DNA of 64,000 nucleotides from Chloroflexota bacterium (GTDB lineage Bacteria > Chloroflexota > Dehalococcoidia > Lucifugimonadales > UBA1127), in the NCBI GenBank assembly GCA_026713825.1, contig JAPONS010000067.1, positions 1 through 64,000 on the forward strand, read 5' to 3'. The notes beneath the pieces were generated by a model that saw nothing but the letters and a program-made list of their open reading frames with translations, ran no database searches and was not told the origin of the DNA. Of the stretch, positions 13,144 through 27,529 are shown piece after piece. A program made the position numbers and the translations under genes. Every line of letters begins with the position of its first letter. Position 1 is the first letter of the stretch.

Positions 13144-13163
13144 GGGTGGTCTCTATAGCCAAC

Positions 13164-13207
13164 TGTGTACACAATATATTGACAATGGAGAGGTAGAACG
13201 GTAGTAT
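13164..13207 (+). promoter_or_regulatory. Near-consensus promoter with upstream palindrome
   Basis: TTGACA at 13179-13184 and TAGTAT at 13202-13207 are separated by 17 bases, the best sigma-70-type match in the window. A perfect 10-base palindrome TGTGTACACA (13164-13173) lies just upstream of the -35. It points into a short structured region that ends in a terminator, not toward any protein gene. Confidence 0.6.
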
Positions 13208-13213
13208 TGGGGT

Positions 13214-13291
13214 GGATAGCCCGTGAGGGTTATCGAAAGGGTAGCCCGTGAGGGCTATCGTGGAAAGGGCAGGCTCAGGCTTGTCCTTTTT
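13214..13291 (+). ncRNA. Candidate small RNA next to DUF3800 gene
   Basis: A predicted transcript of about 78 bases. It begins with two near-identical hairpins (13215-13234 and 13240-13259), each 8 base pairs closed by a GUGA tetraloop of the GNRA class, and ends in a U-tailed hairpin (13264-13291). GNRA loops appear only when the plus strand is read, which together with the promoter fixes orientation. Comparative studies have reported structured RNA motifs beside DUF3800 genes; whether this belongs to one of them is untested. It converges on the DUF3800 gene. RNA status is inference. Confidence 0.5.
13264..13291 (+). terminator. Intrinsic terminator, probably bidirectional
   Basis: Stem AAAGGGCAGGC pairs with GCTTGTCCTTT (two G-U pairs) around a TCAG loop, followed by further T residues on the plus strand. 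It overlaps the DUF3800 stop codon region and can serve both convergent transcripts. Confidence 0.65.
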
Positions 13292-14058
13292 CATTTCAAC
13301 AGCAGTTTTCTTCCATCCGGCACAAGCTTCTCACTTATGGCTTCATTTATTCTCTGCCCGTATACGCCGATGGGGTATGCCCCTGGTCCTTGCGCTTCCC
13401 GGACTGCGAGGATTTTCTGCTCGGCAGCTACGATGTCGGCCACCTGCAGACCCGCTATATTGTTCTGCTTCTTGCCAAACAAGAGCGATCCGTTTGGAAA
13501 TAACGTTTTGAATGCGTCTGCCTTCAACTCGGTTGCCCAGGTTTCTCTGAGCCTCGAATAGAACTCCTGCAATTCATGGTTTTCCTTCTTCCCGCGCCCT
13601 TCCACCATGACGTCGGCTATGCCGTCCCTTTGCTCGGAGAGCCAGTGGCCGACGACGCTAAGCAGTTCCTCCATACAGCGATGATACGGCTCCACATTTC
13701 CCTTCCTTATGGCGTCTCCTTCATCCTTCTTGTCAAAGACGACTGTAGCTACGTACATGGGGACAAAGGCGAGAAATTTCAGAAGCGCGGCTTCCCACCC
13801 GGCATTCAGGCGCGTTTCCCTCAAGACGCCAAAGTGGGACTTTCTGTCCATTATCTGCTTCCTGATGAGCACCGGAGGATCATCAACATCGTATGTAAAG
13901 TGTTCCCGCTTGAGAGTCTCCAGCTCTTGTGGCACTGAAGGGTCATACTCAGTCTTCCGAAATACGACGGCGGTCAATCCCAAATATCGCGGTGCGGGAT
14001 TGGGTGAGTCGTGAAATACATGGTCGCCGGACTCATCAATGTAGATGCGAAAGGACAT
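13291..14058 (-). CDS. DUF3800 domain protein
   Basis: A 255-residue protein with the DUF3800 opening FRIYIDESGDH, in which the acidic residues resemble an RNase H-like nuclease strand, and later Asp-bearing blocks MVEGRGKKEN and GLQVADIVA. DUF3800 proteins occur in phages, mobile islands and some predicted RNA-associated defence loci; activity is unproven. The gene is visibly less GC-rich than its neighbours, suggesting recent acquisition. The ATG before SFRIYIDES was chosen; a 26-codon upstream extension lacks family similarity. A candidate small RNA converges on its 3' end. Confidence 0.88.
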   Translation of the reverse strand: MSFRIYIDESGDHVFHDSPNPAPRYLGLTAVVFRKTEYDPSVPQELETLKREHFTYDVDDPPVLIRKQIMDRKSHFGVLRETRLNAGWEAALLKFLAFVPMYVATVVFDKKDEGDAIRKGNVEPYHRCMEELLSVVGHWLSEQRDGIADVMVEGRGKKENHELQEFYSRLRETWATELKADAFKTLFPNGSLLFGKKQNNIAGLQVADIVAAEQKILAVREAQGPGAYPIGVYGQRINEAISEKLVPDGRKLLLK

Positions 14059-14165
14059 TCGTAGATGATGGAAGACGAGCGCATCGCCGTCAAGTAAGGC
14101 TCCTCGCTTACCCTGTAGTTGAGCCTGCGCGCGCAACCCTGTAGCATAGTCGGCAGGAGGGCGGT

Positions 14166-17171: not shown

Positions 17172-17477
17172 TCAATTGGCTGGAGGTTGCTCCTTCTCCA
17201 CAAGTCTCCCCGAAAGGTACTTGTGGACCACGCTAGAGAGCAAACTTTGCCGCGACAAGCCCTCCTCGTGGGCTCTGGCACTCGCAAGCATGTAGTCCCG
17301 CTCCGTAACGCGAAGTTGGATCCGCCTATTCTTTGCGTACGTGTTGCGAGCCGCTTCCCCAGCATCCGCGATGGCCTGCTCAACGTTGGGCACGGAGACG
17401 GTTTCGCCTTGCTCGAAGGCCTTCAGAACCTCCCGCTCCTCGTCGTCCAGCTTGTTCTTCATCAATTCATCGCTCAT
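17172..17477 (-). CDS. BrnA-like ribbon-helix-helix antitoxin
   Basis: A 101-residue acidic/basic protein whose C-terminal half contains a ribbon-helix-helix pattern: the strand RRIQLRVTERDY followed by two helices with GLSRQSLLSSVVHKYL. It would bind operator DNA as a dimer and neutralise the adjacent toxin. The start overlaps the toxin stop by 4 bases, giving the toxin-first order typical of BrnT/BrnA pairs. Family inferred from architecture and context. Confidence 0.7.
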   Translation of the reverse strand: MSDELMKNKLDDEEREVLKAFEQGETVSVPNVEQAIADAGEAARNTYAKNRRIQLRVTERDYMLASARAHEEGLSRQSLLSSVVHKYLSGRLVEKEQPPAN

Positions 17478-17761
17478 TGAGGCCGCCTCCCTCGATAACC
17501 TCTGGTCGCCTTGCGACTTGGGATAATCGTCTTGAGAAAGCCTTTGCCGTCAGGCTGTGTCACAAAGGGTACCAAGTAATAGTAGTCGTCTATCTCCACA
17601 ACGAAAACTTGCTGACCCGGATAGCGCTCCAAATTTGGGTGAACGAACACGTCCACCAAGTAGCCTTCTCCAATTGCGGAAACCACCCTGCCGAAAGAGA
17701 TTCCCCGCTGTTCAATGAGCTGTCTATCCTTTTCCTCGCTCCACTCAAACTCAGTGGGCAT
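17474..17761 (-). CDS. BrnT-like toxin
   Basis: A 95-residue protein opening with FEWSEEKDRQLIEQRGISFGRVVSAI, the strand-helix-strand start typical of BrnT, a RelE-fold ribonuclease that cleaves RNA and inhibits translation. Later segments FVVEIDDYYYLVPF and the Arg-rich C terminus (SRKATRGYRGRR) also fit, though the usual arrangement of catalytic residues cannot be checked by eye. It is co-transcribed with the RHH antitoxin. Confidence 0.72.
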   Translation of the reverse strand: MPTEFEWSEEKDRQLIEQRGISFGRVVSAIGEGYLVDVFVHPNLERYPGQQVFVVEIDDYYYLVPFVTQPDGKGFLKTIIPSRKATRGYRGRRPQ

Positions 17762-27136: not shown

Positions 27137-27529
27137 GGGGCCGGTGGGCCTGTAAGCCGAGTTCTGTACCCGTCCGCCATGAGTTTACGCCCCAAGGGGC
27201 TTCCTCCTTATGGCCAAACGGGCGGTGGCCATCCCTCTAGCCCCGCCGTTGCCGGCGGGGTCGTGCGGCCAACCCGGGGGCGAGCCGGGCGCTCTTGGCC
27301 CCCCTATTTGGCCTTGCTCCGGGTGGGGCTTGCCCGCCGCCGTGTCACCACGGTCGGCCGGGAGCTCTTACCTCCCGATTTCACCCTTACTCCGGCAAGC
27401 CGGAGCGGTATGTTTCTGTGGCGCTTTCCGTCGGGTTTCCCCGCCTGGGCGTTACCCAGCACCCTGCCCGTGAGGAGCTCGGACTTTCCTCTCCGACGAA
27501 TCGGAGCGGCCACCCAGCCCACCGGCCCC
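27137..27529 (-). ncRNA. rnpB: RNase P RNA, bacterial class A
   Basis: The catalytic RNA that matures tRNA 5' ends, about 393 bases. The ends pair as helix P1 (GGGGCCGGTGGGCT with AGGCCCACCGGCCCC). Conserved core segments are readable on the minus strand: AGAGGAAAGTCCGAGCTC near the 5' side, ACAGAAACATACCGC in the middle, TAAGGGTGAAA, and CAGAACTCGGCTTACA near the 3' end. A -10 box sits at the expected distance upstream. Ends are inferred from P1 and may be off by a few bases. Confidence 0.95.

Follow-up and report, generated by a model that had tools for sequence, protein, structure and literature searches.

Proteins of the DUF3800 family are common and, to our knowledge, without known function. 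Rfam contains the motifs DUF3800-I (RF02969) and DUF3800-IX (RF02968) (PMC11701678), and DUF3800 proteins in Cas12a2-linked loci have been reported to possess an RNase H fold with a catalytic rearrangement (PMC10910872). Among systems in which phages act through RNA, the pseudo-ToxI of phage PhiTE suppresses ToxIN by RNA mimicry (PMC3475682), and phage tRNAs evade tRNA-cutting defences (PMC10264068, PMC11555353).

Against this background we analyzed a DUF3800 gene and the small RNA gene that converges on it in a 64-kb stretch of DNA from a Chloroflexota bacterium (hereinafter the window, taken at its full length of 64,000 nucleotides; Table 1). An earlier note on this DNA had described a TTGACA-17-TAGTAT promoter, two near-identical hairpins with 8-bp stems and GTGA loops, an intrinsic terminator, and a DUF3800 gene on the opposite strand, and each of these elements is found at the locus: the protein belongs to the DUF3800 family (PF12686: 39 bits against a curated cut-off of 21, E 1.6e-9), RNA and gene are convergent, and a promoter scan around the RNA returned two promoter-like sites in 3.5 kb where 0.5 were expected. 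A simple terminator scan did not list the terminator of the window RNA; its hairpin and TTTTT are nevertheless plain in the sequence and are also the rule in the family. The folding energy of the RNA lies far below that of shuffled sequences (z -6.4; 0 of 200 shuffles as low). Folding the region as two separate hairpins gives -27.4 kcal/mol and as a single long nested hairpin -29.2 kcal/mol, a near tie that makes the description as two hairpins uncertain; in the nested fold the conserved GGTGGA and CGTG likewise border the outer stem. The genome holds no copy of the hairpin besides the tandem pair at the locus. The 10-base palindrome TGTGTACACA, to which the same note had pointed upstream of the promoter, does exist (13164-13173) and carries no weight, since 116 such palindromes occur in the 64 kb and the related promoters that we read lack it.

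Table 1. Features of the RNA-DUF3800 locus, in window coordinates
Feature	Position	Strand	Basis
RNA promoter, TTGACA-17-TAGTAT	13179..13207	+	promoter scan
Small RNA, putative start; conserved GGTGGA, hairpin region, conserved CGTGG, terminator hairpin	13211..13292	+	covariance model R1
Hairpin copy 1, GATAGCCC-GTGA-GGGTTATC; family helix P2	13215..13234	+	sequence reading, folding, R1
Hairpin copy 2, GGTAGCCC-GTGA-GGGCTATC; duplication private to the window among loci read	13240..13259	+	
Intrinsic terminator, common to the RNA and the convergent DUF3800 gene	13262..13292	+	sequence; T-run in relatives
DUF3800 gene, 255 aa; predicted RNase H2-like fold; conserved YIDESGDH, E153, D208	13291..14058	-	
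Predicted DUF3800 promoter, TTGACG-17-CATCAT; nearly leaderless message	14065..14093	-	promoter scan; same layout in G004
Right flank of cassette, TTGAGC-17-TAGCAT; probable ispH/lytB promoter	14119..14147	+	direct reading
Two-gene cassette (RNA and DUF3800) between dinB and ispH/lytB; approximate boundaries	13150..14116	.	

Searching the genome collection with the DUF3800 protein recovered 61 loci; they span many phyla, and one lies in an archaeal MAG. At most loci the region 3' of the DUF3800 stop shows, on the opposite strand, a promoter followed by AA-[P1]-GGTGGA-[P2]-GCGTG-terminator, P1 being in a typical member a 5-bp hairpin with a 4-nt loop. A covariance model of this RNA (R1), built without the window RNA, matched beside 31 of the 35 intact close DUF3800 genes (L006-L023, L025-L040, L042), with the RNA converging on the DUF3800 stop, and at the other four (L006, L027, L028, L035) a variant promoter-hairpin-terminator RNA was recognized by eye only. 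The earlier note had taken homologues consistently lacking the RNA as evidence that would speak against its proposal; among the 35 close intact genes there is not one without it. Run on the window, R1 recovered the window RNA as its best match (22.1 bits, E 8.3e-7) and scored the second hairpin as a partial copy. Over 53 loci it gave 48 matches, all at the 3' flank of intact or broken DUF3800 genes except on two phage contigs; because most rows of its training set were drawn from these same loci, the informative matches are the independent members, namely the window, L007, L010, L045, L050, L064, L081, L235, L236, L238, L240, L243, and L245. Most Chloroflexota matches to R1 below about 28 bits were dropped, as they resembled chance matches in coding DNA.

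An alignment of the 31 RNA cores bears out the hairpin covariation in homologous loci that the earlier note had proposed as a check: 99.2% of cells are paired, six pairs are changed on both sides, and there are 66 double-change cells against 16 in shuffled alignments, while structures slid along the same alignment reach at most 53% pairing. Both helices covary strongly, with G-U pairs included, and one-sided changes from C-G to U-G in P2 favour an RNA over a DNA structure. A sigma-70-like site matching at least 9 of 12 positions lies just 5' of the RNA in 23 of 34 loci, compared with 9 of 680 48-mers drawn at random from these loci; in 32 of 34 loci a T-run follows the core at a distance of no more than 55 nt. 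What did not carry over to the family is the tandem GNRA-hairpin design: of the loci read, only the window has P2 in duplicate, P1 is absent from the window RNA and its nearest relatives, and most members combine a single P2-type hairpin with a different second hairpin on the 5' side, the loop being sometimes of a non-GNRA type. The conserved position and the covariation, together with the joint exchange described below, assign the RNA to DUF3800, and we regard it as close to certain that the RNA family is real and paired with this protein.

More distant DUF3800 genes also face convergent RNAs, with the related core GGA-hairpin-[U]CG. The convergent hairpin is of another kind at three further DUF3800 genes (L246, L249, L046), where it contains a conserved CTGCGTAGCGG segment, present twice in L249. 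At L082 (354-1159), in a single case of partner swap, a family RNA (28.6 bits) converges not on DUF3800 but on a gene coding for a NYN domain (PIN-like) adjoining a type I restriction specificity gene; relatives of this NYN gene, located on five plasmids and a viral contig, did not show the same RNA. A different promoter-hairpin-terminator unit converges on the downstream side of an NYN gene in a Paenarthrobacter plasmid (L256); genes of this type may be paired with RNAs of their own.

The search with models of the known DUF3800-associated RNAs, suggested in the earlier note, came back empty: Rfam 15 gave no match to the window RNA at gathering thresholds, nor any up to E 5. There was likewise no gathering match in 20 close relatives or in sets of 20 and 11 more distant loci; on a typical member (L019) only unrelated chance matches appeared, and the DUF3800-I model (115 positions) matched nothing in 400 Chloroflexota genomes or the controls. 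The RNA family is widespread and uncatalogued, a distinction from known motifs drawn only with the Rfam 15 models.

The AF2 model of the window protein (pLDDT 93.9, pTM 0.92) found its closest solved folds in RNase H2/HII (3puf_G and 1eke_A; Z 10.2 over 166 residues), with 1eke_A also recovered by Foldseek (E 2e-4); the same fold recurs at Z 7-9 in Argonaute and Piwi nucleases, and the matches listed in the fold search are headed by RNase H-like folds and do not include ToxN. Across an alignment of 34 DUF3800 sequences D8, E9, D12, E153, and D208 are invariant, and the YIDESGDH segment resembles the DE motif of RNase HII. DUF3800 is accordingly predicted to adopt an RNase H-like fold with a candidate active site, and we infer that it acts as a nuclease. 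No solved structure was found among DUF3800 relatives by sequence; the RNase H fold reported for the Cas12a2-linked proteins (PMC10910872) is independent of the one found here. PADLOC returned no convincing match for the window protein, and the literature mentioning DUF3800 contains, as far as the search matches show, no description of it as a toxin.

Comparison with genomes of the same genus suggests that RNA and protein travel as a unit. In three of them no DUF3800 gene separates dinB from lytB, the gap being about 70-80 nt, and a fourth (G004) carries in the same gap a DUF3800 gene whose product is 46% identical to that of the window, together with a different RNA. As the gap in G004 differs in both genes from that of the window while the neighbors are 94% (dinB) and 97% (lytB) identical, the two have been exchanged together. 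The inserted segment, which starts right behind the dinB stop and reaches as far as the lytB promoter, holds only the RNA and DUF3800. L006, among the close loci, is itself a MAG of this genus and places the window in the class Dehalococcoidia. Of 393 genomes of this class, no more than 12 yielded a DUF3800 relative, and so patchy a distribution is typical of accessory genes. Elsewhere in the window, positions 17172-17761 (minus strand) hold a weak match to the BrnT toxin (PF04365, E 5.8e-4, below the cut-off) and an adjoining 101-aa ORF, possibly a BrnT/BrnA-like toxin-antitoxin pair judging from the sequence; positions 27137-27525 (minus strand) code for a bacterial class A RNase P RNA (270.9 bits).

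At six loci the RNA is intact beside a broken DUF3800 gene: one stop codon in L024, a deletion in L041, a frameshift in L045, deletions in L050, only 29 residues left in L064, and only a C-terminal remnant in L080. Three more loci (L043, L044, L052) have a broken DUF3800 gene with no RNA seen. Retention of the RNA next to a broken gene is, in this small sample, the pattern that would be expected if the protein were harmful without its RNA. Some of the breaks could be assembly errors, or the genes may have been broken only recently, which by itself could account for the remaining RNAs.

Copies of the RNA also occur on viral records. Two records carry the complete RNA and no DUF3800 gene, one of 21.8 kb (L235; R1 64.7 bits) and one of 44 kb, where the RNA stands beside an endolysin gene (L238; 30.1 bits); as viral records may be fragments, the absence of DUF3800 holds for the record and is not proven for the virus. 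Scans for two hairpin cores of the distant type returned 40 viral records, of which 11 have a DUF3800 gene, always next to the hairpin, and 29 carry the core without the gene, some of them possibly by chance. Several viral matches to the last of the patterns (e.g., L289, L290) have the appearance of coding DNA and could be due to chance. A 23-nt hairpin, GGACCGGGGATTCCCAGTCGGCG, is identical in viral contigs bearing DUF3800 (L272, L275, L280, L285, L295) and in contigs free of it (L273, L276-L278, L282, L284, L292, L294, L296), and the long DNA matches of L285, L294, and L278 are Acinetobacter phages or plasmids; an arms race inside a single host group would leave such sharing behind. On temperate phages we observed DUF3800 genes in Pseudomonas JBD68, Paracoccus Pkon1, and Latilactobacillus TMW 1.1365 P2 (L110-L112), in the latter two near CI repressor or integrase genes. 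A further phage sequence (L123, L124, L137) combines a promoter with a P1-like hairpin and GGTGGAT but lacks P2, either by chance or as a degraded copy.

In six viral contigs (L258, L263, L265, L268, L269, L270) a DUF3800-type hairpin is inserted in a tRNA-like gene, mostly in the D-loop and typically as GGCGGAA-[hairpin]-TGGTAGACGC, with matching acceptor and T arms around it in L269, L270, L268, and L263. ARAGORN calls a tRNA in L270 (tRNA-Ile) and L268 (tRNA-Ala) only once the hairpin is removed; for L258, L263, L265, and L269, which the Rfam tRNA model did not detect, the tRNA-like reading comes from arms judged by eye. Ordinary tRNA genes adjoin other viral hairpins, that of L267 heading an array of 16 tRNAs, and none of 80 control viral loci has a tRNA within 600 nt. 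A loose viral pattern, AATCC-N7-10-GGAGGTGGAT, gave 120 stretches, by our estimate about the number due to chance in a collection of this size, and was kept only as a control. L262 and L266 have half a tRNA-Leu with the hairpin after an intact tRNA-Leu; L262 additionally codes for a phage tmRNA and a GOLLD RNA, and L258 for a phage tmRNA.

Comparative sequence analysis thus supplies the conserved RNA and its pairing, the joint exchange with DUF3800, the predicted fold of the protein, the pattern of gene loss, and the copies on phages, and we infer that a protein-RNA toxin or defence module is the best model for them. We lean, with somewhat more belief than doubt, toward DUF3800 being a nuclease toxin or abortive-infection effector restrained by an RNA antitoxin, against which phages carry decoys. 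The hairpin GGUGGA-stem-loop-[G/U]CGUG of the roughly 80-nt RNA would be the specific ligand of DUF3800, and its binding would restrain the protein in the manner of an RNA antitoxin; infection would lower the level of the RNA and free the nuclease, and phages would counter with free copies of the hairpin acting as decoys, sometimes inside tRNA-like genes. The substrate could perhaps be tRNA, a guess prompted by the link between the hairpin and tRNA genes and in line with the precedents of phage tRNAs. The phage copies of the hairpin and the prophage location of DUF3800 are suggestive of anti-phage defence; the position of the window cassette between housekeeping genes, outside any defence island, counts against it.

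The main alternative, to our minds unlikely yet deserving serious weight, is that DUF3800 cannot work without the RNA, which would serve it as cofactor or scaffold within an RNP nuclease, while the phage copies would compete for the protein as decoys and titrate it. Much of the evidence would also be explained by a guide or cofactor RNA: the near-universal pairing and the covariation agree with it, as does the fold shared with Argonaute and Piwi nucleases, and decoys would work equally. Yet the RNA contains no variable segment of guide length, its variation being confined to the 4-nt loops, paired positions, and the terminator stem, and it stays intact beside broken DUF3800 genes. Much less probable is a role purely in cis, in which the RNA would regulate DUF3800 as an antisense transcript or provide the shared terminator; the convergent layout with a common terminator would fit, but copies lie on phage records without DUF3800, the conserved flanks fall outside the gene overlap, and conservation of P1 and P2 is unnecessary for termination. 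That the hairpin is instead a DNA element handled by DUF3800, such as a transposition or recombination site, seems very improbable: the cassette moves, phage hairpins sit at several places, and the RNase H fold is common to transposases, but promoter and terminator are conserved, P2 includes G-U pairs, the tandem pair is confined to a single genomic locus, and the phage copies occupy structure-preserving places of tRNA-like genes.

More broadly, and more tentatively, the RNA-restrained nuclease could represent a widespread and unrecognized defence module of the RNase H fold, to which phages answer with the hairpin alone or set in the D-loop of a tRNA-like gene; we found no description of this kind of anti-defence RNA in the literature searched. 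DUF3800 had already been noted beside structured RNAs, and to this are now added a compact covarying RNA family and a defined two-gene unit. With a covarying RNA, a candidate active site, and natural phage hairpins in hand, the question of what DUF3800 and its RNA do together becomes directly testable. If the decoy reading is true, tRNA-like genes serve phages as hiding places for antidote hairpins, and inserts in tRNAs could be used to find other RNA-controlled defences.

Set against the described systems, the window RNA resembles the Rfam motifs DUF3800-I and DUF3800-IX in being a structured RNA adjoining a DUF3800 gene, and differs in that no Rfam 15 model matches it or the relatives scanned. 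The protein is like RNase HII and RNase H2 in predicted fold and in its conserved acidic residues, including the DE motif on the first strand; unlike them it is RNA-paired, only about 11-13% identical, and a putative nuclease. From the guide-RNA nucleases (OMEGA, CRISPR) the family is separated by the lack of a variable guide segment. The RNA of type III toxin-antitoxin systems consists of tandem repeats upstream of the toxin and co-transcribed with it, whereas the DUF3800 RNA is convergent, has its own promoter, and lies downstream of the stop; as the gene order differs, and the RNase H-like fold found for DUF3800 differs from that of ToxN, we do not file the cassette as a type III member. 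The phage tRNAs that evade defences offer a parallel as phage RNA genes directed against nuclease defences, and differ from the present case, where a DUF3800-type hairpin lies within or beside tRNA-like genes. A close precedent for the proposed logic is that of ToxIN and phage pseudo-ToxI, in which a nuclease is held by a structured RNA and the phage escapes by encoding that RNA itself.
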